Shown: piece after piece, positions 11,541 to 36,747 of the stretch
How the letters are laid out: the number at the start of each line of letters is the position of its first letter
How positions within the stretch are numbered: the stretch's first letter is position 1
Assembly: GCA_945897865.1 (NCBI GenBank)
Contig: CAMDHJ010000004.1
Location: 1-61,062, forward strand
DNA from: Tepidiphilus sp. J10
GTDB lineage: Bacteria; Pseudomonadota; Gammaproteobacteria; Burkholderiales; Thiobacillaceae
DNA length: 61,062 nt
Reading direction: 5' to 3'
The notes under the pieces: model-generated
Database searches by the model: none
Told to the model about the DNA's origin: nothing
Seen by the model: only the letters and a program-made list of their open reading frames with translations
Translations under genes and position numbers: made by a program

Positions 11541-12716
11541 ATGTATCGGTTTTGGCTGTTATTTTCCCAATTTGTTGCCGCCATCGCGGTTGTTGTAGCC
11601 GCCCTGTTTGGGCTTGATCGAATCGCACCCGGACTGCTGCCTTTCGATGGCGCCGCAGTCACCATTCGTGAAGCCGCCAACGAAGTTGCCCAGTCCAGAG
11701 CCCCTTGGCAAGTCGCCTCCTATGCCTATGCGGCCAGCAAATCACAGCCTTCGGTGGTTAACATTTTCACTAGCAAAGAGATTCGCAGCCAGCGCAATCC
11801 TTTGATGGATGACCCACTGTTTCGACGCTTCTTTGGCGACCGTTTTCCAATCGACAACCGGCCACAGCGGGTTTCCAATCTGGGCTCTGGCGTCATCGTC
11901 AGCGAAGACGGTTTCATTCTGACCAATCATCATGTGGTCGAGGCGGCCGACGAAATTCAGGTGGCACTTTCAAATGGGTTGACCCTGGATGCAAAAGTTG
12001 TCGGCACCGACCCGGAAACCGACCTCGCCGTTCTTAAAGTCAAGCGCGACCAGTTGCCGGCGATCACCTTTGCCAATAGCGATATGCAGCGGGTGGGTGA
12101 TGTCGTGTTGGCGATAGGCAACCCATTCGGGGTGGGCCAGACCGTCACCATGGGAATCATATCCGCGCTCGGACGCAGTCATCTCGGCATCAACACATTT
12201 GAAAACTACATTCAGACCGACGCCGCAATCAATCCGGGCAACTCAGGCGGCGCCCTGGTTGATGTTTCGGGCAATCTAGTTGGTGTCAACACCGCCATTT
12301 TTTCCCGCTCCGGCGGCAATCTGGGCATCGGCTTCGCAATTCCCATATCAATCGTTCGCCAAGTGATGCGGGAAATCATTGCCAACGGCACGGTGACACG
12401 TGGCTGGGTTGGCATTGAAGTGCAGGAAATCACGCCTGAAGTTGCCGAATCGTTCGGCCTTAAATCGACAGATGGCGCGCTGATCGCTGGCGTGTTGCGC
12501 AGCGGGCCGGCGGATCGTGCCGGCATTCGTCCTGGCGACGTTCTGATTGCGGTGGGGGGCAAACCCGTCAAGGACTCCTCATCACTTCTTAACCTGATCG
12601 CCGCATTGCCGCCGGATAAAGTCGTCCTCCTCAACCTGATCCGCGCGCAGAAGGAGATGAAATTGCCGGTCACCATTGAGAAACGTCCGCCCATGCAGCG
12701 TGACGTTCAGGAATAA
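11541..12716 (+). CDS. Membrane-anchored DegS/HtrA-type serine protease with one PDZ domain
   Basis: HtrA-family periplasmic protease. The catalytic triad is visible as His131 (LTNHHVV), Asp161 (TDLAVL) and Ser235 (NPGNSGGALV). A single PDZ domain occupies about residues 290-380 (GVLRSGPADRAGIRPGDVLIAVGG). The N-terminus is an uncleaved-looking membrane helix (FWLLFSQFVAAIAVVVAAL) rather than a signal peptide. One PDZ plus an anchor is the DegS layout, which cleaves RseA to activate sigma-E. Betaproteobacterial members are often annotated Do family or AlgW. It is monocistronic, between petA and the signalling operon. Confidence 0.9.
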   Translation: MYRFWLLFSQFVAAIAVVVAALFGLDRIAPGLLPFDGAAVTIREAANEVAQSRAPWQVASYAYAASKSQPSVVNIFTSKEIRSQRNPLMDDPLFRRFFGDRFPIDNRPQRVSNLGSGVIVSEDGFILTNHHVVEAADEIQVALSNGLTLDAKVVGTDPETDLAVLKVKRDQLPAITFANSDMQRVGDVVLAIGNPFGVGQTVTMGIISALGRSHLGINTFENYIQTDAAINPGNSGGALVDVSGNLVGVNTAIFSRSGGNLGIGFAIPISIVRQVMREIIANGTVTRGWVGIEVQEITPEVAESFGLKSTDGALIAGVLRSGPADRAGIRPGDVLIAVGGKPVKDSSSLLNLIAALPPDKVVLLNLIRAQKEMKLPVTIEKRPPMQRDVQE

Positions 12717-12761: not shown

Positions 12762-12788
12762 TCAAGTTATAAGTTAGGCATCCGATAA
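12762..12788 (+). promoter_or_regulatory. Candidate sigma-28 (FliA) promoter of the signalling-flgMN operon
   Basis: TCAAGTTA (12762-12769), an 11-bp spacer, then TCCGATAA (12781-12788). The enterobacterial FliA consensus is TAAAGTTT-N11-GCCGATAA, so spacing is exact with 6/8 and 7/8 matches. A start near 12795 would give a leader of about 22 nt with AGGAG at 12803-12807 nine nt before the ATG at 12817. This fits flgM and flgN at the distal end. Confidence 0.62.
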
Positions 12789-12816
12789 AGGCTCCTGTTT
12801 GCAGGAGTCTTGCCTT

Positions 12817-13881
12817 ATGCGGATCGTAATTGTTGACGACAACCCGGTTAACCTGAAGCTGATGGAGAGCCTGGTTAAACGTGCCAGTCCGGAATATCAG
12901 CCAATCACCTTTCAAGACTCGGCCGAAGGTTTGGCCTGGTGCCTGAGCAACGTCATCGATTTGTTGATTGTGGACTACATGATGCCAACGCCTGATGGGC
13001 TGGAATTTATCCGGCTCTATCGAGAGCCGCCCGAGAATGCCGACATCCCGGTATTGATGATCACAGCCGATCACGAAAGGGAAACCCGTTACGCGGCGCT
13101 TGAATCGGGTGCCAATGACTTTCTCACCAAGCCAATCGATAACGCCGAGTTTCGCGCCCGGCTGCGCAATATGGTTTCTCTGCGGCGCAGTCAACGAGCT
13201 CTTGCCGACCGTGCCGCCTGGCTGGCGGAAAAGGTTACCGAGGCGACCAAGGCCATCCTCGATCGTGAGCACGAAATGATTACCCGCCTGTCGCGCGCGG
13301 CCGAATTTCGCGACCCCGAGACGGGTGCACATATTCAACGCATGTCGAACTACTCGCACCTTATCTCGCAGCAATTGGGTTTGCCGCTGGAAGAACAGGA
13401 ACTCATCCTGCGCGCAGCACCGATGCACGATGTGGGCAAGATCGCCATTCCAGACAACATTCTGCTGAAGCCGGGAAAACTCGACGACGCCGAGTTCACC
13501 ATCATGAAAACGCATGCCGAGAAAGGCTGGGAAATCTTGCGCGGAAGCCAGTCGCATCTGCTGGATATCGCCGCCATCATTGCTCGTTCACACCATGAGA
13601 AATTTGATGGTAGCGGCTACCCGCTCGGTATCAAGGGTGAGGAAATTCCATTACATGGCCGCATTGTCGCGGTAGCTGACGTATTTGACGCGCTGACCAC
13701 CGAACGCCCCTACAAAAAAGCCTGGGAAGTGGAGCGGGCATTAGATTTCCTGCAAACCGGCGCGGGTTCGCATTTCGACCCGATCTGCGTCGCGGCCTTC
13801 CTCTCCCGCCTGGAAGATGCCTTGGTGATCCGAGCCAGTTACCAAGACCCGGGACCGCACCCGGCTCACCTCGACGACTGA
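12817..13881 (+). CDS. Response regulator with HD-GYP cyclic-di-GMP phosphodiesterase domain
   Basis: The receiver domain (residues 1-125) keeps the phospho-acceptor Asp53 (LLIVDYMMP), the acidic pair DD at 7-8 and Lys105. A coiled linker follows, then an HD-GYP domain with His204-Asp205 ([12 protein letters not shown]), HH at 259-260 and the GYP triplet at 267-269. HD-GYP enzymes hydrolyse c-di-GMP, lowering which usually favours swimming. The ATG at 12817 is used because AGGAG is 9 nt upstream, so the in-frame ATG-like start at 12799 lies before the ribosome site. It is the first gene of a co-directional operon through flgN. All active residues needed for hydrolysis appear present. Confidence 0.9.
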
Positions 13882-13903
13882 CTCGCTCCCTGAAGACCAA
13901 CCC

Positions 13904-14728
13904 ATGCTGATTCGCTTATTTCTTTTGCTCAATCTGCTCGCTTCATTGCCGGCGCTTGCCCAGACAAATCTGCAAACCTTCACGCTGTCGGTCGTACCGC
14001 AGTTCACTCCGGTCGATATTGGTCAGCGATGGACACCTTTGCTGCGCCAACTGGAAGCTGAAACAGGATATCGCTTCCAACTTCGTCTGCTCGACAAAAT
14101 CCCCAGATTTGAATTCGACTTTCTAGCTGGCATTCCTGATCTGGTTTTCTTGAATCCGTATCACATGCTGATTGCCGCCGATGCGCAGGGTTATATCCCG
14201 CTGGTACGCGGGACAGATCCGCTGATTGGCATCCTGGTTGCCGCACAGGACGGCCCGATCAAAAAGTTGCAAGACCTGAATGGAAAGCGGCTCGCCTTTC
14301 CGGCGCCCAATGCATTCGGCGCCTCGCTCTACCTGCGTGCTTTGCTGACTGAAAAGGAAGGGTTGCGCTTCAATAGCGATTTTGTCGGTTCACATCAGAA
14401 CGTTTATCGCCATGTCCTGATCGGCGACTCCGCCGCCGGCGGTGGCATTTATGCCACGCTGGAAAAGGAATCCCCGGCCATCCAGCATCGTCTACGTGTT
14501 TTGTACACCACCCCCGGGGTTGCGCCGCATCCGTTTGCCGCACACCCAAGAGTGACACAAGTGGCACGCGAAAAAATCCGCGACGCATTGCTCAAACTCG
14601 GCAGCACCCCCGCTGGCCGAAAGCTATTGGCCGATGTCGATCTGGATAAGGTCATCAGCGCCGACTTCGCGCGTGACTATCTGCCGCTGGCAAAACTCAA
14701 ACTCAAACATCACTCCGTCAGCCAATAG
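13904..14728 (+). CDS. PhnD-like periplasmic substrate-binding protein
   Basis: A signal peptide (MLIRLFLLLNLLASLPALAQ) precedes a domain of the phosphate/phosphonate-type solute-binding family: FTLSVVPQFTPVDIGQRWTP, PDLVFLNPYHMLIAADAQGY, LVRGTDPLIGILVA, and KKLQDLNGKRLAFPAPNAFGAS. No ABC permease or ATPase gene is adjacent. The protein is instead followed after 27 nt by a membrane hybrid kinase with a periplasmic domain. In other systems such orphan binding proteins present a ligand to a sensor kinase (compare TorT/TorS). I infer a sensory role. The ligand is unknown. Confidence 0.85.
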   Translation: MLIRLFLLLNLLASLPALAQTNLQTFTLSVVPQFTPVDIGQRWTPLLRQLEAETGYRFQLRLLDKIPRFEFDFLAGIPDLVFLNPYHMLIAADAQGYIPLVRGTDPLIGILVAAQDGPIKKLQDLNGKRLAFPAPNAFGASLYLRALLTEKEGLRFNSDFVGSHQNVYRHVLIGDSAAGGGIYATLEKESPAIQHRLRVLYTTPGVAPHPFAAHPRVTQVAREKIRDALLKLGSTPAGRKLLADVDLDKVISADFARDYLPLAKLKLKHHSVSQ

Positions 14729-14755
14729 GCAATCAAAATCGACAATCCATCGGCA

Positions 14756-17152
14756 ATGGACCATCCCAGCCTTCGCCAAAGGGTGCAACACCTGATCGGC
14801 AATCCCCCTCTTCGCGTCCTGACACGCCTGCTGCCGAGACAATTCACACTTCAGCTCAGTCTGTTCATGGCTGCGATGCTGGTTGCGAGCATCTCAGCGC
14901 ATACGTTTTACACCACGCTGGAACAGACCCGAGGCGAGCAGAACCGGTTGACCAAGCGGAGTGAGGATCTGTTGTCCAACCTCGCCAACTCCTCCGCAAA
15001 TCTGCTACTGACCCGCGACTATGCTGCGGTTGAACGCATGCTGCTACTGGCCGCGGACAACGATGAACTACGTTCGATCAGGGTTTTCAACAGCAAGGGA
15101 CAGTTGATCATCCAGATCGTCCATGCCCCAGGCAAACCCGCCGAGGCCGTATTCGACCTGAACACCCAGAAGCCACCGCAAGGCGCCACCACCCAGTTCT
15201 TCTGGATCGACGCCGCCGGCAACAGATTGCCGGGTAGCGACTTCTCCTGGCAGGCCGAACATCTGGTGATCTGGCGTGCGCTGGATGAGCTTGGCTATGC
15301 CGGCAGTCTGCAAGCCGAAGTGGATACCCAGGCACTCAAGCAAAATCTTTCACAAATTGTCATCAATGGTGTGCTGGCGGTCATCCTTGCCAGCACGTTG
15401 AGTGTGACATTGCTGCTGATGTATCTGCGGCGACCGGTCGCCACAATTCGTGCTTCCTCCCGCTTTGCCGAACAGTTGACCAGCAATCTGGGCGAAACAC
15501 TACCTGCCTTTGAAGGCCCACAGGAGATCGAATCGCTCGTCGCCGCACTGAATGAAACCTCGCTCTGGCTGTACACCAAGGAGATGTCGGTGACCGCAGC
15601 CCAGCAACGTCTGGAAGCCGTTTTCAGCAACATTTCCGACGCCCTGCTGACGGTTAATTTTGATGATGTGGTGGAAAGCGCCAACAGCGCCGCATGCGAA
15701 CTGTTCGGCTGGCGCGAGCATGAACTGGTCGGCTTGTCCGCATCGACTTTGTTGCCTGAATGGGGCGACATGACCGGCGACGACAGTCCCGACAAGCAAC
15801 GTCTGGAAACCTTGGCCAACCTTCGAGACAACGGCGACTTCCCGGCTGACATCACACTCTCCCGCTTCTATCTGCACGGTTTGCCGTATCGAATTCTGGT
15901 GGTGCGCGACATTACCGAGCGGAAACAGGTGGAAGCCGCGATGCGGCAAGCGCGCGACGTGGCTGAAAATGCCAACCGGATGAAAAGTGAGTTTCTCGCC
16001 AATATGAGCCATGAAATCCGCACGCCGATGAACGGCATCATCGGCATGACCGATCTGGCACTGGAAACCGACCTGACCGATGACCAGCGCGAGTATCTCG
16101 GCATGGCGCACAGTTCGGCGCAACACTTGCTGACGATCATCAACGAAATCCTCGACTTCTCAAAAATCGAAGCCGGCAAACTCGACATCGACATCGAATC
16201 CTTCCAGCTGAACGATCTTTTGCAGGGCGTCGTGCGCAACATGGCGGTACGGGCGCAGGAGAAAAACCTGTCGCTAAGCCTGAACCTGGCGCCAGATTTA
16301 CCCGCCAGCATCGAATCCGACTCGGGACGCTTACGCCAGGTGCTGATCAATCTGATTGGCAACGCGATCAAATTCACCCGGACCGGCGGCATTGAGGTCA
16401 GCGTTGATGGCTACCCGAACTTCGATCTTGCGAACGACCTGCAAGCGCGCTATCTGCATATCTGCGTCAGTGACAGCGGCATTGGCATTGCGCAGGACAA
16501 ACAGGCAGCGATCTTTGATGCGTTCACCCAGGCGGATGGCTCGATTACCCGCAGCTTCGGCGGCACCGGGCTCGGTCTGACCATTTCGAGCAAATTGATC
16601 GAATTAATGGACGGCAACATGTGGGTGGAAAGTGAACTCGGCAAGGGCAGCCGTTTTCATTTGCAAATCCCCTATCACCCTGCTGAAGTCGAGGCAGAAA
16701 ACAGCACAGAAGCCGAGAACGGCAACGAGATTGCTGAACCCGATTGGGATATCGCCGGCCTCACCGTACTGCTGGCTGAGCACAACCCGGTCAATCGCAA
16801 GCTCACGCTCGCACTGCTCGACAAACTGGGTCATCAAGTCACTCTGGCCGAAGATACCGAAACGCTCCTGAACAGATTCGCGCCAGGTCGGTTTGACCTG
16901 ATTCTGCTCGACTTGACACTGCCGGGGGGCAATGCGGAAGACAGCATCCAGTACATCCGCGAGCGAGAAGCGGATCGGGCGGCGGCAACGCCGATCATCG
17001 TCATGATCAGCAAGGCCAACGAGGGCGAATCCGACGTCTCACTTCCCGCCGACACGAATGGTCATATTCGCAAGCCGATCCAGTTTGCAGCGCTCAAGTT
17101 GACCATCAGCGCTGCCGTTAACGGCAACACTTCTATATCCGGAACACTGTGA
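14756..17152 (+). CDS. Membrane hybrid sensor histidine kinase (periplasmic sensor, PAS, HisKA, HATPase, REC)
   Basis: Two membrane helices (about 31-52 and 202-224) bracket a periplasmic domain of about 150 residues. This is followed by a HAMP-like region, a PAS domain (about 283-395: AVFSNISDALLTVNFDDVVESAN), HisKA with His419 ([12 protein letters not shown]), HATPase_c with DSGIGIAQDK and [10 protein letters not shown], and one receiver domain (about 665-790) with Asp in LILLDLTLP. It is predicted to autophosphorylate and pass phosphate via its receiver, possibly to the HPt of the next kinase. The periplasmic domain may read the PhnD-like protein encoded just upstream. The stop codon overlaps the next start (TGATG). 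Confidence 0.9.
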   Translation: MDHPSLRQRVQHLIGNPPLRVLTRLLPRQFTLQLSLFMAAMLVASISAHTFYTTLEQTRGEQNRLTKRSEDLLSNLANSSANLLLTRDYAAVERMLLLAADNDELRSIRVFNSKGQLIIQIVHAPGKPAEAVFDLNTQKPPQGATTQFFWIDAAGNRLPGSDFSWQAEHLVIWRALDELGYAGSLQAEVDTQALKQNLSQIVINGVLAVILASTLSVTLLLMYLRRPVATIRASSRFAEQLTSNLGETLPAFEGPQEIESLVAALNETSLWLYTKEMSVTAAQQRLEAVFSNISDALLTVNFDDVVESANSAACELFGWREHELVGLSASTLLPEWGDMTGDDSPDKQRLETLANLRDNGDFPADITLSRFYLHGLPYRILVVRDITERKQVEAAMRQARDVAENANRMKSEFLANMSHEIRTPMNGIIGMTDLALETDLTDDQREYLGMAHSSAQHLLTIINEILDFSKIEAGKLDIDIESFQLNDLLQGVVRNMAVRAQEKNLSLSLNLAPDLPASIESDSGRLRQVLINLIGNAIKFTRTGGIEVSVDGYPNFDLANDLQARYLHICVSDSGIGIAQDKQAAIFDAFTQADGSITRSFGGTGLGLTISSKLIELMDGNMWVESELGKGSRFHLQIPYHPAEVEAENSTEAENGNEIAEPDWDIAGLTVLLAEHNPVNRKLTLALLDKLGHQVTLAEDTETLLNRFAPGRFDLILLDLTLPGGNAEDSIQYIREREADRAAATPIIVMISKANEGESDVSLPADTNGHIRKPIQFAALKLTISAAVNGNTSISGTL

Positions 17153-17694
17153 TGAACGGCCTGTTATTTACCGAATTCATGGAAATGGTCGAGGCAACCT
17201 GGTCGTTCGACATGGTTGACACCCTGATCGATCGTTCCCAGGTCGATTCAGGTGGCATCTACACCGCAGTCGGCAGCTATCCGCAGGAAGAAATGGTTGC
17301 CTTGATCAACGCGTTGGCGGAAGAAACCCAACTCCCGATCGACCAGATCGAACGCACCTTTGGTCAATATTTGTTCAGCCGTTTTGTGCGTGAATACCCG
17401 CAATACTTCACCGACATCCGTGACAGCTTCCAGTTTCTCGCGCGTATCGACGAGATCCTTCGCACGCTCTTTCGCAAGCATTTTCCAGACAGCGAGCCAC
17501 CGACTATCCTCGTCGAGCAGTCACCTGGCCGTCTCAGTCTGAGCAACTTTTCTGCCCACGCTTTCATTCACCTGGCTCATGGCTTGATCGAAGGTTGCAT
17601 CAGCCATTTTGGTGGCAAAGAAGTCTTGCAACGCGAAACAGCGCCCGACTTGACCAGCGCCAAAGCGCGCTTTGTGATCACCCGATCGGCATAA
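17152..17694 (+). CDS. H-NOX-fold (HNOB) protein lacking heme-ligating residues
   Basis: The 180-residue product follows the H-NOX pattern end to end: MNGLLFTEFMEMVEATWSF, SGGIYTAVGSYPQEEMVALI, FGQYLFSRF, then FPDSEPPTI and LAHGLIEGCISHFGG. H-NOX proteins bind heme and sense NO or O2, modulating a partner kinase. Here the proximal histidine position (normally xHxEVxKLYP) is Arg104 in ILRTLFRKHFP, and the YxSxR porphyrin-binding motif reads Asn132-x-Ser134-x-His136. Heme binding is therefore doubtful. ATG at 17152 overlaps the upstream TGA, and a GTG at 17149 is also possible. It sits between two hybrid kinases, the usual partner type. Confidence 0.85.
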   Translation: MNGLLFTEFMEMVEATWSFDMVDTLIDRSQVDSGGIYTAVGSYPQEEMVALINALAEETQLPIDQIERTFGQYLFSRFVREYPQYFTDIRDSFQFLARIDEILRTLFRKHFPDSEPPTILVEQSPGRLSLSNFSAHAFIHLAHGLIEGCISHFGGKEVLQRETAPDLTSAKARFVITRSA

Positions 17695-17744
17695 GGACGT
17701 CTTGATGCCCCCCCTTCCCCTTCAGAGCAAGCCAATTCCCCAGC

Positions 17745-17766
17745 GAGTCAGGCAAGCGCCTGACTC
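17745..17766 (+). promoter_or_regulatory. Perfect 9-bp hairpin in the leader of the second hybrid kinase
   Basis: GAGTCAGGC (17745-17753), loop AAGC, GCCTGACTC (17758-17766). No T-tract follows, so it is not a standard terminator. It lies 27 nt before the kinase ATG, in the only gap near 100 bp within the operon, and could be an mRNA-processing or translation-control element. Confidence 0.5.
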
Positions 17767-17793
17767 CTGTCATGCAACGACGAGTCGCAAGCC

Positions 17794-20064
17794 ATGATTG
17801 AATCAGTCTGGCAGCGACGTTTTGAGCGTGAACGCAGTGCGCGCAAACAAGCCGAGCGGATCCTGCATGAAACCACGCAGGAGCTTCATCAAAACAATCA
17901 GAACCTGCGCCAGCTCGCTTCCGAGCTGGATATGATGATCAATAGCCGAACAGCCGAGCTGACCCGTGCGCTGAATGAAGCCGAACACCAGAAAAACCAG
18001 CTCAGCATCCTGAATCAGGAACTCTTCGCCGCACGCCAAGCCGCCGAATCCGCCAATCGCCTGAAGGGTGAATTTCTGGCCAACATGAGCCATGAAATTC
18101 GCACACCAATGAACGGCATCATGGGCATGGTCGACCTGACCCTGGAAACCGAACTCTCGCGTGAGCAACGAGAACATCTTGAACTGGTGAAAACCTCAGC
18201 CAACCACCTGCTCAGGGTAATCAACGACATCCTCGATTTCTCCAAAATCGAAGCCGGCAAGCTGGACTTTGAGGCAGTCGAATTCGACCTGATCGATTTG
18301 ATTGGCGACACCCTGAAATCACTCGCACCGCGCATCGAGTTGAAAAATCTGACGCTCGCCTGTGAGCTGGGTCCGGATACGCCACGCTTTGTCTTCGGCG
18401 ATCCCGTGCGGCTGCGTCAGATATTCATCAACCTGCTCGGCAACGCCATCAAATTCACCCAGAGAGGCACAGTCGGCTTGGCCTTCACCCGTTGCCAACA
18501 GGCCGCCGGGCAAACCAATCACTGCCTTGAATTCACAGTCCACGACACAGGCATCGGAATTGCGGCGGAACATCAGAGCGCGATCTTCTCCGCTTTCTCG
18601 CAAGCCGATGGCCAGATAACCCGCAAATATGGCGGCACCGGGCTGGGTCTAACGATCACCAAGCAACTGATCGAAATGATGGGCGGCAGCATTCGGGTAG
18701 AAAGTGAACCCGGACAAGGGTCTCGTTTCATATTTCAGGTCTGGCTGGGCCAAGCGGCTTGCCCGGAAGACATCCAACGCCAGGAAGCCGAACTGAAAAA
18801 CCAGCGTGTCCTGGTGGTGGACAACGACCCCGCCAATCAGCGTCAGTTGTCGGCTCTGCTTGAGCACTTGCAGATGCACTCGGAAAGCGAGACAAAAGGC
18901 GCCTTCGTGCTGACCCGGCTGGATCAAGCACGGATAGCAGACGCCCCGTACCGCGTTGTCTTGCTGAATACCCGGATGCCGGATATCGACAGCTTCGAAT
19001 TGGCTGCCCTCCTGCTCAATGAAGCGCGGCAGGAATCAAATCAGCCCGCCCCCCAATTGATCATGCTCGACGCCACCCAGCAGCATGGCGACACCGCCCG
19101 CTGCCAACAACTCGGTTTGGCTGCCGACGCTACGGCGGCGACTTCATCAACGTATCTTTCCTGTCTCAACCAACCCGTCGCCTTGAGCGACCTGCGCCAG
19201 GCACTGAAAATCGCACTCGGCGCAACTTGCCAGATCGATCCCATGGCCACCCGACAAAACCAGCAAGCGGCCGAAGCCCGATACCGAATCCTGCTGGCCG
19301 AAGACAACCCGGTTAATCAGAAACTCGCCATCAAGCAATTGGAAAAGCGGGGGCACTCCACCCACGTCGCGGAAAACGGCCAACTTGCGGTTGAAGCCTG
19401 GCAAACAGGCGAATTCGATCTGATCTTGATGGACATGATGATGCCGGAGATGGATGGCCTGGAAGCCACCCGTCGCATCCGGGAAATCGAGCTTGCCGCC
19501 GGCCACCACCACCGCATTCCGATCATCGCGATGACCGCGAATGCGATGACGGGAGATCGTGAACGCTGCCTGGAAGCCGGCATGAATGGATACGTCTCGA
19601 AGCCGGTCAAACCAGAAACGTTGTTCATGGAAATACAGCGGGTGTTGCAAGCCGATGCCGACTCCTCCAGCCAGAACACCCCATCCATCCCGAGCCAAGC
19701 GCCAGACGAGACCGCAAATGCACAAGCAGCCCCCATCTTTGACCGCGCAGATGCGCTTTCGCGGATTGATGGCGATAAAGAGCTCCTTGCCGTCCTGCTC
19801 GACATGTTCCTGGCTGACGCCCCCAACTATCTGGCCGAGATCGATAATGCACTGAGCAACCAGGACTGGCCACGCCTACACCGCGCCGGCCACACGCTGA
19901 AAGGCGTCTTTGCCACCTTTTCGGCGCGACGCGGCGAGAATGTAGCGCGACAAATGGAACACGGCGCCAAGGCGGCCGATGCGGCAACCTGCCGCGAGTT
20001 GGCGTTACGCATACATGCTGAAGTCCAGGCCTTCATCGAAATCATTCAACTGAAAACTGACTGA
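17794..20064 (+). CDS. Soluble hybrid histidine kinase with pseudo-receiver, receiver and HPt domains
   Basis: No membrane segment is present. A long coiled coil (residues 5-90, [19 protein letters not shown]) leads into HisKA with His100 ([12 protein letters not shown]) and HATPase_c ([20 protein letters not shown]). A first receiver (about 337-475) has Asn392 at the acceptor position (VVLLNTRMP) and Gln460 in place of the conserved Lys. A second, intact receiver (about 498-620) has Asp547 (LILMDMMMP). A C-terminal HPt carries His700 ([13 protein letters not shown]). Kinases with this coiled-coil head are typical H-NOX partners, so it is probably controlled by the adjacent H-NOX-like protein. 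The HPt could hand phosphate to the HD-GYP regulator. The spacing to the H-NOX gene is 99 bp. Confidence 0.9.
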
Positions 20065-20144
20065 GATCCAGGCCCGTGCTTGAAGCGAACAAGACCAACC
20101 AGCCCGACAATACAATCCTGGCTGCCACAACCGAGGAGATGCTG

Positions 20145-20462
20145 GTGAAAATTGACAACCTGATCAAAAGTCCGCCCATTACCCGGAGCAAAGACACGCG
20201 TTCTACCGCGACGCGGCGCACCCCAGAGGCGGAAACTGTCGCCATCAGCGACAACGTGAATCTCACTTCGACAGCAGAAAAACTGAGCCAACTGGAAGAA
20301 GCGCTTCGCGGCGTCAGCATCAGCGATAACGCCAAAATCGAATCGATCCGCCAGGAAATCGCCGAAGGCCGTTTCAAGGTCGATGAAGAGGCGGTTGCCG
20401 AAAGTCTGGTGCGGGAAAGCCTAGCCAACATCAGTCGGCGCGCAGGGCAAGTTGACGACTAA
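20145..20462 (+). CDS. flgM: Anti-sigma-28 factor FlgM
   Basis: FlgM binds and inhibits FliA until the hook-basal body is complete, when it is exported. A GTG start at 20145 is chosen because GAGGAG ends 6 nt before it and it yields the family-typical opening MKIDNLIKS. The ATG at 20139 would have no spacing to the ribosome site. The C-terminal sigma-binding region is recognisable (ISDNVNLTSTAEKLSQLE ... KIESIRQEIAEGRFKVDEEAVAESLV). It lies 80 nt after the hybrid kinase and 9 nt before flgN, so it appears to be part of the same transcription unit. Confidence 0.92.
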   Translation: MKIDNLIKSPPITRSKDTRSTATRRTPEAETVAISDNVNLTSTAEKLSQLEEALRGVSISDNAKIESIRQEIAEGRFKVDEEAVAESLVRESLANISRRAGQVDD

Positions 20463-20471
20463 ACTAGCGCG

Positions 20472-20924
20472 ATGATGCTGCTCGAAGCCAAACTCACCGC
20501 CCTGAACCAACAACTTGAGCGTTTTCTAGTGTTGCTCGAAGAAGAAGCCCTCGCCCTGTCCAGCGGCAACTCCGAACAACTTGAAACGCTCACCCAGCAA
20601 CGCCTGAACGTCAGCCTGCAACTCGCTGAAGACTGGCGCCAGCTAGCCGAGCAACTCGGACTGCCGGCCAATTCAGGCCTGCCGGCATTACGTCTGCGTG
20701 CATTCAGCGACAGTCAGCCGACAGACAACTGGCAGCGCCTGGAAAAACAGGTCCACGAAGCCAACCGCCTCAACCGCGTCAACGGTCGCCTGATCGAAGA
20801 ACAGATGCGCCGCACCCAGGCCGCCATGCAAGTGCTGCAAAGCGCCTCCAGCCGCGGGCTTTACGGCGCGGATGGCCGCATGAACGACCTTCTCAACACC
20901 ACTCGGAGCATCGACAGCGCATGA
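20472..20924 (+). CDS. flgN: Flagellar synthesis chaperone FlgN
   Basis: FlgN escorts the hook-filament junction proteins FlgK and FlgL to the flagellar export gate. The 150-residue product is nearly all helical with the FlgN pattern (LTALNQQLERFLVLLEEEALAL ... QRLNVSLQLAEDW ... VHEANRLNRVNGRLIEEQMRRTQAAMQVL). Position directly after flgM is diagnostic. Its stop overlaps the ATG of the following metal-binding protein by 4 bp. Confidence 0.92.
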   Translation: MMLLEAKLTALNQQLERFLVLLEEEALALSSGNSEQLETLTQQRLNVSLQLAEDWRQLAEQLGLPANSGLPALRLRAFSDSQPTDNWQRLEKQVHEANRLNRVNGRLIEEQMRRTQAAMQVLQSASSRGLYGADGRMNDLLNTTRSIDSA

Positions 20925-21130
20925 ATACCCTGACTCTCAACGTAACCGGCATGAGCTGCATGGGTTGCGTCAACAGCGTGAAAAACCTGGTTTCCGCCCT
21001 GCCCGGCGTGGCGAAAATCGACATCGATCTGGCCAGCGGCCGGGTCGAGGTGGAGCACGACCCGGCGCAAGCCGATGCCGCCGCCATCCGAGCCGCAATC
21101 GAAGACGGCGGCTACGGCATCGCCGACTGA
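20921..21130 (+). CDS. Small heavy-metal-associated (HMA) domain protein, copper-chaperone-like
   Basis: The 69-residue protein is a single ferredoxin-like HMA domain with the metal-binding motif GMSCMGC and the usual C-terminal GYGIAD. Free-standing HMA domains bind Cu(I) or similar soft metals and hand them to P-type ATPases. No ATPase or CueR-like regulator is nearby. Its ATG overlaps the flgN stop, so it is probably transcribed with the flagellar operon, an unexpected pairing that may simply reflect read-through. Confidence 0.9.
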   Translation: MNTLTLNVTGMSCMGCVNSVKNLVSALPGVAKIDIDLASGRVEVEHDPAQADAAAIRAAIEDGGYGIAD

Positions 21131-21150
21131 GTTGCAGACGGAACGGCCGC

Positions 21151-30646: not shown

Positions 30647-32026
30647 CTAGGTTGAAACGGGCAATTCCACGCTGACGGCCAAACCCTGAAGATCCAGTCC
30701 GGGACCAAACGCCACCCGACCATGGTAGTGCTCGACGATACGCAACACGATCGACAAACCGAGACCGACGCCGCTGGCATCGGCTTGATTCAGCCGGTTG
30801 AAACGTTGCCCCAGCGCCGCCCGTTGCGCCGCCGGCACACCCGGCCCACTGTCCGCCACCAGCATGCTGACCCGCTCTCCCTGCAAGGCGACGCTGATTT
30901 CGACCCGGCCACCGCGCGGCGTGTAACGCAGCGCATTGTCAAGCAGGTTGCGAATCAGAATGCGGAGTACTTCCGTATCCGCTCTCAGGGGCGCGCTCAA
31001 TGCATGCAGCGACAGGTCAATCTGTTTCTGGATCGCTCTCGGGCCCAGGTCCTGACATAGCTCGCGCACCAACACCGCCAGATCCGTCATGGTTTCGCTG
31101 GACTTCAGCGCAACATCAAGCCGGCTCAGCGTGAGCAACTGATTCACCAGCCTGGCCAGACGATCCGCCGAAACGGCCGCCTGCTGCTGCGCCAGCATGC
31201 GTGTTTGCTTGTCCCCCGCCAAGCGCAGCGCGTCGAGCTGGGCGCGCAAGGCCGCAATCGGCGTGCGCAGCTCATGTGCGGCATCTCCGGTAAAGCGCCG
31301 TTCCGATTCCATCGCAATATGCAAACGCATCAACAACGCGTTCAGCGCTTCGATCAACGGCATCAGTTCGTTTGGCACCGCATCGAACGACAGCGGCGTC
31401 AGATGACTCGATTCGCGCGATGACACTTCCGCCGTCAGCCTGCGGATCGGCGCCAGACTGTAGTAGATCAGGCCGACCATACTCAGTATGCCCAGCGGTA
31501 GAACAAGCAGATAGGGTCGTATGTTGCTGTGTGCGATACCTTCCACCATTTCCTGCCGATCCAGCAGATCCTGCCCGGCGATGACGCGATAGACCCCATC
31601 GGCCGAAGTCCTGGCCAGAATCCGGAAATTCCGTCCGGCAAAGGCATCGTCGCTGTAGCCGTCTCTCAGTTCGAAAGCGCGGCCGCTCTCCATATCGCCG
31701 GAGCGCAGAATCAAGCGAGGGAAGGGACGTGGATCGCTCGATACATGGGCACTGGCGGACGGCGGTGGCTGCTTGAGTTGCCAGATCTGGAAGGTGGTGT
31801 AGCTGTGGTCCGAATGCACTCCGGTACCGATATCGCCAATGCCACGACCTTCATTGATGCGACTCAGGAACAGCAGGCTCTGCACCAGTTGCGCCAGATG
31901 CGCATCAAGGATTTCATCCGCTTCGAGAATGGCGGCACGATAGCTGCCGACCGCAGCAAACAGGCCACAGGCGAGCAGCACGGCAATTGCCGCCGAGATC
32001 AACCTGGCCTGCAGCGATTTGAACAT
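30647..32026 (-). CDS. Sensor histidine kinase, QseC/PmrB/TctE-like
   Basis: Classical OmpR-class kinase of 459 residues. An N-terminal membrane helix (LISAAIAVLLACGLFAAVGS), a periplasmic domain of about 130 residues (EADEILDAHLAQLVQSLLFLS), a second helix (YLLVLPLGILSMVGLIYYSL), a HAMP-like linker, HisKA with His in DAAHELRTPIAALRAQLDAL, and HATPase motifs NLLDNALRYTPRGG, DSGPGVP and GVGLGLSIV. It follows its response regulator by 6 nt. The signal may be cationic compounds or a redox state, but this is not visible in sequence. Confidence 0.92.
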   Translation of the reverse strand: MFKSLQARLISAAIAVLLACGLFAAVGSYRAAILEADEILDAHLAQLVQSLLFLSRINEGRGIGDIGTGVHSDHSYTTFQIWQLKQPPPSASAHVSSDPRPFPRLILRSGDMESGRAFELRDGYSDDAFAGRNFRILARTSADGVYRVIAGQDLLDRQEMVEGIAHSNIRPYLLVLPLGILSMVGLIYYSLAPIRRLTAEVSSRESSHLTPLSFDAVPNELMPLIEALNALLMRLHIAMESERRFTGDAAHELRTPIAALRAQLDALRLAGDKQTRMLAQQQAAVSADRLARLVNQLLTLSRLDVALKSSETMTDLAVLVRELCQDLGPRAIQKQIDLSLHALSAPLRADTEVLRILIRNLLDNALRYTPRGGRVEISVALQGERVSMLVADSGPGVPAAQRAALGQRFNRLNQADASGVGLGLSIVLRIVEHYHGRVAFGPGLDLQGLAVSVELPVST

Positions 32027-32032
32027 CGCGGT

Positions 32033-32689
32033 TCAGGTTTCCATCATGTAACCAATGCCACGCAAGGTGACGATGCGGCTGCTCCCCAGCTTGCGGCGCA
32101 GATGATGGATATGGACCTCCACCGTATTGCTTTCCGCGCCCTCCCCCCAGCCATACAACGTGGCCTCAAGCTGCGACTTGGACAGCACGCGACCCAGATT
32201 CGACATCAGCTTCTCCAGCAAGGCGAACTCTCGCCCGGTCAAGTTGACCGGCATGCCGGACACCCTTACCCGGTGTGCTTGCGGGTCCAGTTCAATCTCG
32301 CCGGCGATCAGACATTTGTGCATCTGGCCCTGGGCGCGCCGGATCAACGCATGCAGGCGTGCGGCCAGTTCTTCCATATCGACTGGCTTGATCACATAGT
32401 CATCGGCCCCCGCCTTGAAGCCGGCCAATTTGTCACTTTTCCCATCACGCGCGGTCAGGATCAGTACCGGCAGCGTCCGCTGTTGCTGACGTAGACGCTG
32501 CAACAACGAGATGCCGTCTTCGCCCGGCAACCCGATATCCAGCACGGCCGCCGCATAGTCTTCACTGCACAGCGCGGGCCAAGCCAGGCTGGCCTCTTGA
32601 ACCCAGTCGGGCGCAAAGCCGAGCGAGCACAGCCCGCTGCGGAGGCCGTCGCCCAGGAGTGGGTCGTCTTCGATGATCAGGATACGCAT
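32033..32689 (-). CDS. OmpR-family response regulator, QseB/PmrA-like
   Basis: The 218-residue regulator has a receiver domain with acidic residues EDD, acceptor Asp in AAVLDIGLPG and Lys in DDYVIKPVD. A winged-helix DNA-binding domain follows (LTGREFALLEKLMSNLGRVLSKSQLEATLYGW, SNTVEVHIHHLRRKLG). The ATG at 32689 is preferred to a GTG at 32695. An array of four YTTAAG sites begins only 12 bp upstream, matching the PmrA-type recognition pattern CTTAAG-N5-CTTAAG, so it probably regulates its own operon and the divergent multiheme cytochrome. Confidence 0.93.
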   Translation of the reverse strand: MRILIIEDDPLLGDGLRSGLCSLGFAPDWVQEASLAWPALCSEDYAAAVLDIGLPGEDGISLLQRLRQQQRTLPVLILTARDGKSDKLAGFKAGADDYVIKPVDMEELAARLHALIRRAQGQMHKCLIAGEIELDPQAHRVRVSGMPVNLTGREFALLEKLMSNLGRVLSKSQLEATLYGWGEGAESNTVEVHIHHLRRKLGSSRIVTLRGIGYMMET

Positions 32690-32700
32690 GGGCACAGTGT

Positions 32701-32739
32701 CTTAAGGCGTTCTTAAGCTTGCCTTAAGACCTTGTTAAG
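32701..32739. promoter_or_regulatory. Array of four YTTAAG-like repeats with 11-bp period
   Basis: CTTAAG at 32701-32706, 32712-32717 and 32723-32728, and GTTAAG at 32734-32739, each separated by exactly 5 bp. PmrA/QseB-subfamily regulators bind two such hexamers with 5-bp spacing; here there are three consecutive pairs in the divergent promoter region. Confidence 0.85.
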
Positions 32740-32806
32740 AACAGGGGCTGATCATGGCGGCAACATGGAAGCGTTCCATGCCTTTATTCGGATCAAGGAG
32801 GAAGTC

Positions 32807-34954
32807 ATGCAGAGTATCTTCAATTTCAGGTGGCTCTTTTTGCCACTGCTTTTTCTGATCGGCGTGGTTTCCGCCGATGACGACAGAAGGACGTTATCTG
32901 TCACTCCATCAACACTGAGCGTCAAAGTTGGTGAACAGGCCTTTGCCAAAGTTGCCAATGCCAATGGCAGCGTCAAGGCCAAATCAGCCAATGAAAAAGT
33001 TGCCAGCGCAGAATTCACAGATGGCAAAGTGAAGGTCAAGGGCAAATCAGCCGGCAGCACAAAGATCAGCGTCACGGACAAAAAACGGACTGTCGAAGTC
33101 ATGGTACAGGTTGTCGCAACAGGCAACCCGCCGCCCAACCCGGGCTCAGGTCTTGCCATTTCACCGGGCAATCTGTTGTTGATTCCTGGCCAGAGTGGCG
33201 TCTTCAACATCAGCAACGCATCCGGGCGCGTCTCCATCACCAACCCCAACAGCAACATTGCCAGCGCCAGCCTGAGCGGCAACACCATCCAGGTGAAAGC
33301 CAAGGCGGTTGGCAACACCCAGATGACCGTGCGCGACAGCCGCAAGTCTGCTGTTGTGCTGATCACCGTACAGGCCGCCACCACGCCACCCGACGTTGGC
33401 TCTACGACAAGTGGTTACACCCTGCTGGCCTGGAACGATCTCGGCATGCACTGCATGGACGGCGACTACTCGGTGTTTGCCATCCTGCCGCCTTACAACA
33501 ACCTGCACGCACAACTGGTCAACAACACCTCCACCAAGGTGGTCACGCAGGGCGTAACGCTCACCTACGAAGCAACCGCCGATCCGGATTGGTCGGTCAA
33601 CAGCACTTCCTACAACAAGAGCAATTTCTGGCAGTTCGTCAAACCGCTGTTCGGCGTCGACCTGGCCACCGACACCGGGTTGACCGGCAACAAAACCCCG
33701 TCCTTCACGCCACAGACGATGGCCTTCAACACGGCAGACAAGATGTTCGTTGCCGACGGCATCCCCATCACACCCTACGACGACACCGGCAAGTTCAACC
33801 CGTATCCGCTGGTGAAGGTGGTGGCGCGTGACACGACCGGCAAGGTGTTGGCCCAGGCGCGTGTGGTGTTGCCCGTTTCCGACGAGATGAGCTGCGCCAG
33901 TTGCCACGCTTCCGGCTCCGCGAACGATGCCAAGCCGCAAGCCGGCTGGGTCAACCAGAGCAACAAGGAACGTGACTTCAAGATGAATGTGCTGCGCCTG
34001 CATGACCAAAAGCAGTTGGGTAAAGCGGCCTACACCAACGCCTTGCAGAGCATGGGCTATTCACCCACCGGGTTATTGGCTTCGGCAAATCAGGGCAATC
34101 CGGTTTTGTGTGCCGGTTGTCACGCTTCGAATGCGTTGCCAGGCACCGGCGTTGCCGGTCTGAAGCCGCTGACCGAAGTCATCCATGGTCACCATGCCAA
34201 GGTCAAGGATGCCAAGACCGGCATCTTGCTGGGCAATATCGACAACCGCAGCGCCTGTTATCAGTGCCATCCCGGCTCGGAAACCAAGTGTCTGCGCGGC
34301 GCCATGGGTAACGCCGTCGATGCGCAGGGCAAAGCCACCATGGATTGCCAGGCCTGCCACGGCACCATGTCAAACGTCGGCCGCAGTGGCCGGGTCGGCT
34401 GGCTGGATCAACCTGACTGCCAGGCCTGTCACCACGACGGCAAGCGGGAAACCTCGGCTGTCAGCAGTTCAGGTGTCTTGAAAAAATGGGTGGACACCCG
34501 TTACGCCAGCAATCCAAACACGCCGGCGTCCGGTTTCTCTCTCTTCCGCATGAGCCAGGGCCACGGTGGTTTGCAGTGCGAAGCCTGCCACGGCGCCACG
34601 CATGCCGAGTACCCCAGCTCGCATCAAAACGACAATCTGCAGTCCCTCGACGTTCAGGGCCGCACCGGCACCATCGGCGAATGTACGGCCTGTCACAAAA
34701 CCATGCCGGTCACCGCCACTGGCGGCCCACATGGCATGCATAGCGTGGGCAGCAGCTGGGTCAGCAAGCACGAAGACTATGCCGAGAAGAACGCCGCCGC
34801 TTGCGCCTACTGCCATGGCGCGGACTACCGGGGTAGCGCACTGTCCACGGTGAAGGCAGCCCGCAGTTTCAAAGCGGAAGGCAAGACGGTGAACTACGTG
34901 GCCGGGCAGAAAGTTGGTTGCTACGACTGCCACAACGGGCCGAAAGGTGACTGA
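32807..34954 (+). CDS. Exported nine-heme c-type cytochrome with two N-terminal Ig-like domains
   Basis: A signal peptide (FRWLFLPLLFLIGVVSA) is followed by two Big_2-like Ig domains (about residues 24-105: SVTPSTLSVKVGEQAFAKVA; and 111-193: ISPGNLLLIPGQSGVFNIS). A domain with the conserved LAWNDLGMHCMDGDYSVFAILPPYNN comes next, then nine CxxCH motifs (CASCH, CAGCH, CYQCH, CQACH twice, CEACH, CTACH, CAYCH, CYDCH). ATG at 32807 has AAGGAGG upstream. It is divergent from the two-component genes across the YTTAAG array and followed by a strong terminator. Probably a periplasmic or surface electron carrier. The partner oxidoreductase is not in the window. Confidence 0.9.
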   Translation: MQSIFNFRWLFLPLLFLIGVVSADDDRRTLSVTPSTLSVKVGEQAFAKVANANGSVKAKSANEKVASAEFTDGKVKVKGKSAGSTKISVTDKKRTVEVMVQVVATGNPPPNPGSGLAISPGNLLLIPGQSGVFNISNASGRVSITNPNSNIASASLSGNTIQVKAKAVGNTQMTVRDSRKSAVVLITVQAATTPPDVGSTTSGYTLLAWNDLGMHCMDGDYSVFAILPPYNNLHAQLVNNTSTKVVTQGVTLTYEATADPDWSVNSTSYNKSNFWQFVKPLFGVDLATDTGLTGNKTPSFTPQTMAFNTADKMFVADGIPITPYDDTGKFNPYPLVKVVARDTTGKVLAQARVVLPVSDEMSCASCHASGSANDAKPQAGWVNQSNKERDFKMNVLRLHDQKQLGKAAYTNALQSMGYSPTGLLASANQGNPVLCAGCHASNALPGTGVAGLKPLTEVIHGHHAKVKDAKTGILLGNIDNRSACYQCHPGSETKCLRGAMGNAVDAQGKATMDCQACHGTMSNVGRSGRVGWLDQPDCQACHHDGKRETSAVSSSGVLKKWVDTRYASNPNTPASGFSLFRMSQGHGGLQCEACHGATHAEYPSSHQNDNLQSLDVQGRTGTIGECTACHKTMPVTATGGPHGMHSVGSSWVSKHEDYAEKNAAACAYCHGADYRGSALSTVKAARSFKAEGKTVNYVAGQKVGCYDCHNGPKGD

Positions 34955-34989
34955 TCCGCACCTGTAACTGATCGTCAGTCTGTTTTTCG

Positions 34990-35021
34990 GGCCCGCAGTG
35001 CTGCACTGCGGGCCTTTTTTT
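34990..35021 (+). terminator. Strong Rho-independent terminator of the multiheme cytochrome
   Basis: A perfect 11-bp stem (GGCCCGCAGTG 34990-35000, CACTGCGGGCC 35004-35014) with loop CTG is followed by seven T residues. Confidence 0.95.
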
Positions 35022-35109
35022 GTCTATCAATTCCAGACAATTACCAGCAACCGAAGCAAAACTGTTTACACATTGTTATGATCCAGCGTCATCGCTCCCC
35101 GCCCCCATC

Positions 35110-36747
35110 ATGGAAGACACCAGCCTGCCCACTCGCGCCGCCCAGGAACGTCTGGCCGATGAAGAACTGCTGGTCGTCCGCGAAGCCGTCGCGCTGCTCG
35201 GCAAAAGCCAGGACGAAGCGTATGTGGTGCGTGAAATCCTGCATTTGCTGTCTGAATTCCTCGGCCTCAATCGCGGCCGCGTCGTGTTGCCCGACCCGGA
35301 AACCGGCGAGCTGCGCATCGTCCACGCCTACGGACTGACTCATGACGAAATCGCGCGCGGCAAATATCTGCCCGGCGAAGGCATTACCGGCCGCGTGATG
35401 ACCAGCGGCCAGACCGCCATCGTGCAGGATGTCGATGCCGAACCGCTGTTCCTGTTCCGCACCGTCGCGCGCGAAAACCTGCCGCCGGAAACCGTGTCCT
35501 ACATCGCCTTGCCACTGGAACAGGGCGGTCGCCAGATCGGCGTCCTCGCCGTGCATCGATTACGCGAACGGCCACGGCCGCTGGCGCGCGATCAACAGGT
35601 GCTGAAGATCGCCGCGACGTTGATCACCCACGTCATCCTGCTCAACGAATTCATCCGCGAACGCACCGGCCGCCTGGAATCGGAAAACCGCGAACTGAAA
35701 TGGGCGCTGACCAAGGATTTATCGACCTACGGTTCGTTCGGCATCGTCGGCGAATCGCTGCAACTGCGCCGCGCGTTGAAGCAGATCGAACAGGTCGCAC
35801 AGAGCGAAGCCACCGTGTTGCTGCTGGGCGAATCCGGCACCGGCAAGGAATTGTTCGCCCGCGCCCTGCACCTCTCCAGCCAGCGCCGCGACGCGCCCTT
35901 CGTGAAAGTGAACTGCGGTGCGATCCCGGAAAACCTGGTCGAATCGGAACTGTTCGGCTACGAGAAAGGCGCTTTCACTGGCGCCGTCGGCAGCCGCCCC
36001 GGTTACTTCGAACAGGCCGACAACGGCACGCTGTTCCTCGACGAAGTCGGCGACCTACCGCTGGCGATGCAGGTCAAGCTGCTGCGCGTGTTGCAGGAAC
36101 ATTCCATCCAGCGCATCGGCGCGCGCAAGGAAGTGCCGGTCAACGTGCGCATCGTCGCGGCCACCAATCAGGATCTGCAACTACTGGTCAGCCAGGGCAA
36201 ATTCCGTCTCGATCTGTTCTACCGCCTCAACGTGATTCCGGTCCGTCTGCCGGCACTGCGCGAACGCGCCGAGGACATCCGCCATCTGGTGCGCTACTAC
36301 CTGAACCAGCTCGACCAGGGCTACCAGCGCAACGTCAACATCACGCCGGAAGCCATGCTGCGCCTGACCGACCACCCCTGGCCGGGCAACATCCGGCAAC
36401 TGCGCAACGTGCTGGAACGGCTGATCCTGCTGGCCGAAAACGCCACCATCGGCGAACGTGAAGTCAGCGCGGTATTGCAGGCGGAAACGCATAGCCAGAT
36501 GCAGATGCAAACTCCACCGCCGCCACCGCCCGCTTTCGCCAGTCCGCCGATGCCTGGCGTCGCCAGCCCGCCAGCCGCTGGCGTGCGCGCCTACCACCCG
36601 GTGCAGGAAAGCGACCGCGCCGCAATCGAAGCCGCGCTGGCGGAAACCGGCGGCAACAAATCACGCGCGGCGCAGAAACTCGGCCTGACCTTGCGCCAGT
36701 TCAACTACCGGATGCAGGTGATGGGGATCGAAACAGCGCGGCGCTAA
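35110..36747 (+). CDS. GAF-domain sigma-54-dependent activator, NifA/VnfA-like
   Basis: The GAF domain (about 40-190) is NifA-like: [27 protein letters not shown] and [10 protein letters not shown]. The AAA+ domain has [15 protein letters not shown], the sigma-54 contact loop GAFTGA and [13 protein letters not shown] proline-rich linker ([16 protein letters not shown]) leads to a Fis-type HTH ([27 protein letters not shown]). The linker lacks the paired cysteines of oxygen-sensitive NifA. ATG at 35110 is chosen; a TTG at 35020 lies in the preceding terminator T-run. No nif, vnf or anf gene is in the window, so the regulon is unknown and the link to nitrogen fixation is only by similarity. Confidence 0.85.

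Follow-up and report, generated by a model that had tools for sequence, protein, structure and literature searches.

A kinase gene adjoining an H-NOX gene, a cyclic di-GMP (c-di-GMP) phosphodiesterase dependent on the flagellar sigma factor sigma-28 (FliA), and a periplasmic binding protein that feeds a membrane histidine kinase have each been described in bacteria. We analyze a locus of Tepidiphilus sp. J10 in which genes predicted to be of all these kinds stand in one row with flgM, the gene for the anti-sigma-28 factor. The locus lies in a stretch of 61,062 nucleotides, referred to as a whole as the window (GenBank assembly GCA_945897865.1, contig CAMDHJ010000004.1, positions 1 to 61,062 of the forward strand). 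In gene order it encodes a response regulator with REC and HD-GYP domains, a PhnD-like binder, a membrane hybrid kinase (HK1), an H-NOX-like protein of the HNOB family (HNOB), a soluble hybrid kinase (HK2), FlgM, the flagellar export chaperone FlgN, and a CopZ-like protein. We read this unit as a sigma-28-driven c-di-GMP phosphodiesterase relay that is coupled to FlgM and contains an H-NOX protein turned heme-independent, and we place the probability of this reading at about 0.68. Parts of these kinds are all familiar; the novelty lies in how they are combined and in the heme-less H-NOX. Among the titles and abstracts found in an open-access library on H-NOX together with flgM, HD-GYP, FliA, and heme loss, none describes this gene set; H-NOX and flgM together led to a motility study of Vibrio fischeri.

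Two described H-NOX systems invite comparison. HnoD, a member of the Hno network, is reportedly a degenerate HD-GYP protein. In the H-NOX/HnoK/HnoB-HnoC-HnoD network of Shewanella oneidensis and Vibrio cholerae, as is proposed for the window, the H-NOX gene adjoins a kinase that acts via response regulators on c-di-GMP (PMC8738867). Unlike that network, the window has intact HD-GYP motifs, a second input made of the PhnD-like binder and HK1, a predicted sigma-28 promoter, and flgM-flgN, and its H-NOX lacks the heme ligand. The heme-free redox switch of V. cholerae resembles our reading of the window in one respect: there, too, an H-NOX acts on a kinase without heme (PMC7108781). That switch uses a zinc site with several Cys residues (PMC7108781), whereas the window protein has one Cys and no proximal His.

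The output and the second input also have described counterparts. PdeH (YhjH) of Escherichia coli is a FliA-dependent c-di-GMP phosphodiesterase, and both it and BifA of Pseudomonas putida are EAL-type enzymes. BifA, too, is a FliA-dependent c-di-GMP phosphodiesterase (PMC5300878). A phosphodiesterase under sigma-28 that keeps c-di-GMP low while flagella are made is shared by these systems and the proposed window unit; unlike them, the window unites the gene for a REC-HD-GYP protein with flgM and the genes of the associated kinases. On the input side, the binding site of AioX uses a Cys. As is proposed for the window, a PhnD-like binder feeds a membrane histidine kinase in AioX-AioS and ArrX-ArrS (PMC5908839) and with TtrS (PMC5408782). 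ArrX and AioX are the closest solved structures to the window binder, which probably serves the membrane kinase HK1 as its first component. Unlike AioX, the binder contains no Cys: an AioX-like Cys site is not possible, and AioX-like arsenite sensing by this protein is ruled out.

Partial versions of the gene set occur elsewhere. Six Paenibacillus loci (L133, L136, L163, L167, L169, and L173) have an HD-GYP gene, an H-NOX gene, and a kinase gene following one another in the window's order, the REC-HD-GYP domains having been checked for L133 only; PhnD, FlgM, and FlgN gave no match at E 1e-4 in the fetched Paenibacillus stretches. In Chromatiales, L181:10001-17346 holds in a row an HNOB gene, a hybrid kinase, a PhnD-like binder, a second hybrid kinase, and a REC-sigma-54 activator: the window's two inputs, but a transcriptional output.

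In the window, the eight genes are collinear on the + strand, with spacings of 22, 27, -1, 99, 80, 9, and -4 bp in gene order (Table 1). The HNOB ATG and the HK1 stop codon overlap by 1 bp, and flgN and the CopZ-like gene share 4 bp. The first-pass annotation had named the first seven genes, in this direction and order, and Pfam and TIGRFAM matches place all of them on the + strand. Its central claim, that the two kinases, the REC-HD-GYP protein, and flgM-flgN are joined in one unit, is supported as well, and the unit is headed by a sigma-28-type promoter (predicted). Its account of the unit's content needs two corrections: a later flgM start and an eighth gene. The start codon of the HD-GYP gene is also revised, to ATG 12817. 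The flgM open reading frame opens at 20076. The GTG at 20145 stands directly 3' of a Shine-Dalgarno-like GAGGAG, FlgM read from there lines up with TIGR03824 beginning at its residue 1, and this codon is probably the true start. The eighth gene is the CopZ-like one; the order flgM, flgN, CopZ-like gene recurs in 22 of the 22 congeners with flgM. The 99-bp gap between HNOB and HK2 (17695-17793) contains a 7-bp inverted repeat, GTCAGGC/GCCTGAC; among 13 relatives, judged by match ends, the same gap measures 69 bp in G016, 263 bp in G026, and 6-21 bp in the other 11. Hereafter, G000 denotes the genome of the window and G016 that of its sister species.

The signaling genes form a conserved cassette. 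HNOB is found in 14 of the 117 genomes of the window's family, namely in 13 of the 23 congeners and in G107 from another genus. At all 12 HNOB loci uncut by a contig end, the genes follow the order HtrA, HD-GYP, (PhnD), HK1, HNOB, HK2; two further loci are cut. Since all 12 uncut loci share this order, the gene arrangement is more than chance. PhnD is present in 11 of them and missing only from G107, where HtrA lies about 2 kb from HD-GYP; HtrA also stands 5' of the cassette in G018. At order level, HNOB occurs in 34 of 399 genomes. A wider scan of named genomes took in the best 80 of 532 relatives, and seven of these 80 carry the cassette (one cut), all on contigs of the window's family. At the other 73 loci, a kinase match starts at most 1.5 kb 3' of HNOB in 68. 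An HNOB gene with a kinase 3' of it is the ordinary H-NOX arrangement, which the window shares through HK2; the parts are of known kinds, and the full set appears, among the loci whose gene neighborhoods were compared, only in the window's family. The first-pass annotation would have sought this synteny in Rhodocyclales. The seven named records of the window's family are labeled by their depositors as Hydrogenophilales, Thiobacillus, or Tepidiphilus or, less specifically, as Betaproteobacteria, Pseudomonadota, or proteobacterium, and none as Rhodocyclales.

One congener, G018, appears to have lost the sensors. PhnD, HK1, and HNOB are gone, and the promoter, HD-GYP, and HK2 are intact; the 267-bp gap from HD-GYP to HK2 (L059:8663-8929) retains 22 amino acids that match the end of HK1 (E 5e-4, from a search against very few proteins). 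This apparent natural deletion keeps HK2 and HD-GYP, and therefore points to them as the core pair. The same gap contains a sigma-28-like sequence, TCAAGTCC-N12-ACCGTTAA, about 110 bp before HK2.

The cassette is preceded by a sigma-28-type site that ends close to the HD-GYP gene, 28 bp 5' of its start codon (ATG 12817). Sites were scored against the textbook consensus, with 16 positions and a standard spacer of 11, and this one has the best score on either strand of the whole window (13/16). A site lies 25-34 bp 5' of the HD-GYP gene at all 13 loci holding the region, the window included and the G025 and G029 loci being cut before it, with scores of 12-15/16; in G019, a 12-bp spacer is needed, the standard 11 giving 11/16 only. 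In a control drawn from these loci, 3000 random stretches of 300 bp were scored, and 33 of them had at least 12. Mean pairwise identity on the site alignment is 0.85 in the -35 block and 0.70 in the -10 block, compared with 0.30 in the spacer and 0.31 in the flanks. Conservation of the two blocks, and not of spacer or flanks, indicates constraint on these blocks beyond mere shared ancestry. Of 30 flagellin-family loci scanned in the genus, 11 (a floor, as one orientation only was covered) are preceded by the same consensus at 13/16 or better, one of them at 16/16, and FliA is present in the window genome, above cut-off. The cassette site is classed here as a predicted FliA-type promoter of the class III flagellar kind. 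A further sigma-28-like match with a 12-bp spacer lies at 17094-17121, in the 3' end of HK1 and 30-31 bp before HNOB, and also occurs in G016, G011, and G032. It was discarded as promoter evidence, as it lies in coding sequence; it may simply follow from the encoded amino acids, or it may mark a promoter inside the unit.

The link between cassette and flagellar genes is narrower than the spread of the signaling genes, being a trait of one clade. flgM is found in 22 of the 23 congeners. In six of them, flgM-flgN-copZ lies directly 3' of HK2: G000, G016, G017, G011, and G032, which have HNOB, and G018. HK2 adjoins flgM in 6/6 linked versus 0/16 unlinked congeners, and flgA adjoins flgM in 16/16 unlinked versus 0/6 linked ones. 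Among the linked genomes, flgA is on another contig in five of six; it was looked for and not found in G016, a fragmented assembly that is 71% complete. In a tree built on AlaRS and PurA (1288 columns; 21 congeners, without G027 and G030, which had too little sequence; rpoB, with matches in just 15 of the 23, was dropped as a marker), the six linked congeners form one clade (ultrafast bootstrap 94), with G000 and G016 as sisters (100) and G018 next (90). petABC-HtrA adjoins the cassette in linked genomes and also in the unlinked G107 and G019. One linked clade, and petABC-HtrA beside the cassette in linked and unlinked genomes, therefore indicate that flgM-flgN-copZ moved to the cassette. The conserved synteny proposed as a check in the first-pass annotation thus holds within the family for the signaling genes, whereas linkage of flgM-flgN is confined to 6 of the 22 flgM-bearing congeners.

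In part of the linked clade, the relocated flgM has also lost its promoter site. All 16 unlinked genomes have a sigma-28 site of flgM's own, scoring 11-15/16; its distance is 27-30 bp in 14 of them and 76 bp in the other two. In the linked genomes, the best upstream scores are 12 in G011, 11 in G017, 10 in G032 and G018, and 9 in G016 and G000; random 200-bp pieces reach at least 11 in 2.9%. The upstream scan found no recognizable sigma-28 site before flgM in the window and its two nearest relatives. As it has no sigma-28 site of its own, the window flgM probably depends on the cassette promoter 7.4 kb upstream.

The second departure concerns the H-NOX protein. HNOB aligns full length with solved H-NOX proteins, and its AlphaFold2 model (mean predicted local distance difference test score 90.5) has H-NOX structures as its top Foldseek matches in the PDB (E 5.9e-14, TM-score up to 0.87); the protein is predicted to keep the H-NOX fold. 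The heme site reads differently: the proximal heme-ligand position holds Arg104, and the YxSxR heme-propionate motif is N132-x-S134-x-H136. In an alignment of 121 rows, where at least seven genomes are present twice, the proximal His is found in 117, with exceptions in G000 (Arg), G016 (Asn), and G029 (Leu, twice). The motif Tyr is found in 120 rows and the Ser in 121, and the third position is Arg in 97, His in 23, and Pro in one. Only the window row has Arg as the ligand residue and Asn in place of the motif Tyr. A published survey reports the proximal His as absolutely conserved in 598 H-NOX sequences (PMC7108781). The label "H-NOX-like" in the first-pass annotation therefore stands for the fold and falls for the heme site, and a gas-sensing input is doubtful in the window genome. 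The Leu at the proximal His position in G029 (L048/L113) is possibly an independent loss or an assembly error in a fragmented genome.

The changes are concentrated in one part of the protein. Taking as reference the 70 positions invariant in 11 His-type cassette proteins, 14 are altered in G000 as well as in G016. Ten of these shared changes fall within 98-120, a helix predicted at 99-110 plus the stretch after it (hypergeometric 1.4e-5; permutation scan 2/20000). Six control pairs, one with the Leu-type G029, have 0-2 such changes. At the sequence level, the heme-ligating helix is rewritten in the window HNOB and in its sister. Ligand loss as a sequencing error is ruled out, since G016 carries yet another residue at this position and its helix is rewritten, too. 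Redox sensing of the V. cholerae Cys/Zn type is likewise ruled out: Cys149 is the only Cys, short of a zinc site of three Cys plus His or Gln. The window HNOB is most likely a heme-independent regulator of HK2, with decay as the main rival. A fuller proposal is offered tentatively: that in one betaproteobacterial lineage the H-NOX became a heme-independent, permanently set kinase regulator, within the clade in which flgM passed from its own promoter to the relay, such that one sigma-28 transcript would set both the c-di-GMP level and the anti-sigma dose. An engineered H103G Shewanella H-NOX reportedly traps the kinase-inhibiting conformation; its structure (2kil) is among the PDB matches of the window HNOB, and, if the proposal is true, it would be a laboratory copy of a natural state.

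The proposed mechanism covers co-transcription, the direction of phosphotransfer, enzymatic activity, the effect on motility, and the state of the heme-less H-NOX, all of which we infer from sequence. FliA would transcribe the HD-GYP gene, the kinases, and, in the linked clade, flgM-flgN-copZ from the cassette site as one class III operon. The core route would run in HK2 from His100 to Asp547 to His700 of the HPt domain, and from there to Asp53 of the HD-GYP protein. The three HK2 residues are kept in 15 of 15 genomes; His700 and Asp53, the pair named in the first-pass annotation, are confirmed on the translations. The HDxGK and HHExxDGxGYP motifs are intact in all 13 HD-GYP proteins covering that part (at G025 and G029, a contig end interrupts the locus), and the REC-HD-GYP protein is a predicted c-di-GMP phosphodiesterase. 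Phosphorelay to it would lower c-di-GMP and favor swimming once the flagellar program is on. The PhnD-like binder and HK1 would form a second, periplasmic input; HK1, where Pfam matched no HPt domain, would have to borrow that of HK2. In most relatives, the H-NOX would tune HK2 by nitric oxide (NO) and heme; in the window and its sister species, an H-NOX without heme ligation would probably be a ligand-independent, permanently set regulator of HK2. With flgM at the end of the unit and no sigma-28 site of its own, the anti-sigma factor would be a late product of the sigma-28 transcript, and hence a built-in negative feedback.

This picture partly supports the motile-sessile module envisaged in the first-pass annotation: its core is upheld, its H-NOX input would be recast, and its link to flgM-flgN appears to be a derived trait of one clade. 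If the mechanism is true, a single sigma-28 promoter links the FlgM checkpoint with the sensing of the environment and the breakdown of c-di-GMP. Living genomes supply the intermediates: the cassette alone, the cassette with flgM and its own site, the cassette with flgM without that site, and the cassette with sensors deleted. Moreover, a naturally heme-less H-NOX under purifying selection makes a signaling role for ligand-free H-NOX testable.

The foremost alternative is that the H-NOX is simply decaying: NO sensing would be lost, the gene would be leaving as in G018, and the operon would amount to HK2 and HD-GYP plus leftovers. The absence of PhnD, HK1, and HNOB from G018, with its scar of the HK1 tail, fits such a course, as does the loss of key residues from the HK1 REC and the first HK2 REC in the same lineage. 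HNOB also has the highest nonsynonymous divergence (dN) of eight genes compared between G000 and G016 (0.178 versus 0.030-0.121), so partial relaxation is possible. Decay is nevertheless unlikely, given that both frames are intact over 180 codons, the changes fall mostly in one helix, and the fold is predicted with high confidence. The ratio of dN to synonymous divergence (dS) is 0.31 (95% confidence interval 0.20-0.49; dS 0.57), within the 0.18-0.34 of six His-type HNOB pairs; on this sequence measure, the gene is under purifying selection. We consider it very unlikely that the window HNOB binds heme via another ligand or senses NO in a modified way. Ser134, Pro117, and the hinge glycines G71 and G144 (located through a fixed shift of 10 relative to the V. 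cholerae protein) persist and the sister protein retains Tyr132, but the Arg ligand and Asn motif are unique to the window row, and the lone His in 98-120, H110, is about two turns from position 104.

Coupling to FlgM faces an alternative of its own, which we regard as quite unlikely: that flgM-flgN lies downstream by chance, with a promoter of an unrecognized kind and no functional coupling to the signaling genes. An 80-bp gap precedes flgM, the linked G011 and G017 retain a sigma-28-like site before it, and other cassette-bearing congeners have flgM elsewhere, behind flgA. Linkage has been maintained, however, through the divergence of six species, and no site above 10/16 precedes flgM in G000, G016, G018, or G032, versus a site in every unlinked genome. 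Sigma-70 and terminator scans of the 99-bp (HNOB-HK2) and 80-bp (HK2-flgM) gaps found no + strand site.

Several observations weigh against a sigma-28-driven relay coupled to FlgM with a heme-independent H-NOX. Promoters of a different type could lie in the 99-bp and 80-bp gaps, and the window genome's own flagellin-family match (L252) has an 11/16 site only, though this match is weak, perhaps FlgL, and was scanned in one orientation. Ten of the 23 congeners have no HNOB match, including G018 with its HD-GYP and HK2; nine of these ten have flgM, and HNOB is therefore not needed for a flagellar system. The first REC of HK2 is degenerate in the window, with Asn392 replacing Asp. The acidic pair of the HK1 REC is degenerate as well: E-H in G000, E-Q in G016, E-N in G017, and E-E in G022, compared with E-D in the seven others read (G028, G029, and G032 are outside this count). 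Parts of the relay may thus be decaying rather than specializing. Finally, the G000 and G016 assemblies are fragmented and incomplete (86% and 71%).

Table 1. Positions of the unit, its predicted promoter, and its 5' neighbor in the window
Feature	Position	Strand	Basis
HtrA/DegP-family periplasmic protease gene	11541..12716	+	TIGR02037, 429 bits vs cut-off 416
Predicted sigma-28 (FliA) type promoter, TCAAGTTA-N11-TCCGATAA	12762..12788	+	13/16 consensus positions
REC-HD-GYP response regulator	12817..13881	+	Pfam PF00072, PF13487; Asp53 phospho-acceptor
PhnD-like periplasmic binding protein	13904..14728	+	PF12974, E 1e-52
HK1, membrane hybrid kinase PAS-HisKA-HATPase-REC	14756..17152	+	Pfam
HNOB-family protein	17152..17694	+	PF07700, E 2e-29, 102.9 bits vs cut-off 25.5
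HK2, soluble BarA-like hybrid kinase HisKA-HATPase-REC-REC-HPt	17794..20064	+	Pfam
flgM, anti-sigma-28 factor (probable start)	20145..20462	+	TIGR03824, 68.6 bits vs cut-off 40.75
flgN, flagellar export chaperone	20472..20924	+	PF05130, E 4e-18
CopZ-like HMA metal-binding protein gene	20921..21131	+	NCBIfam CopZ-type models, scores below their cut-offs

The HtrA gene, 5' neighbor of the cassette, is probably its own transcription unit. Elsewhere in the window, at 30647-36747, a two-component pair adjoins a protein whose matches are of the MtrC/MtrF-like and cytochrome c7 kinds; a GAF-sigma-54 activator comes next.

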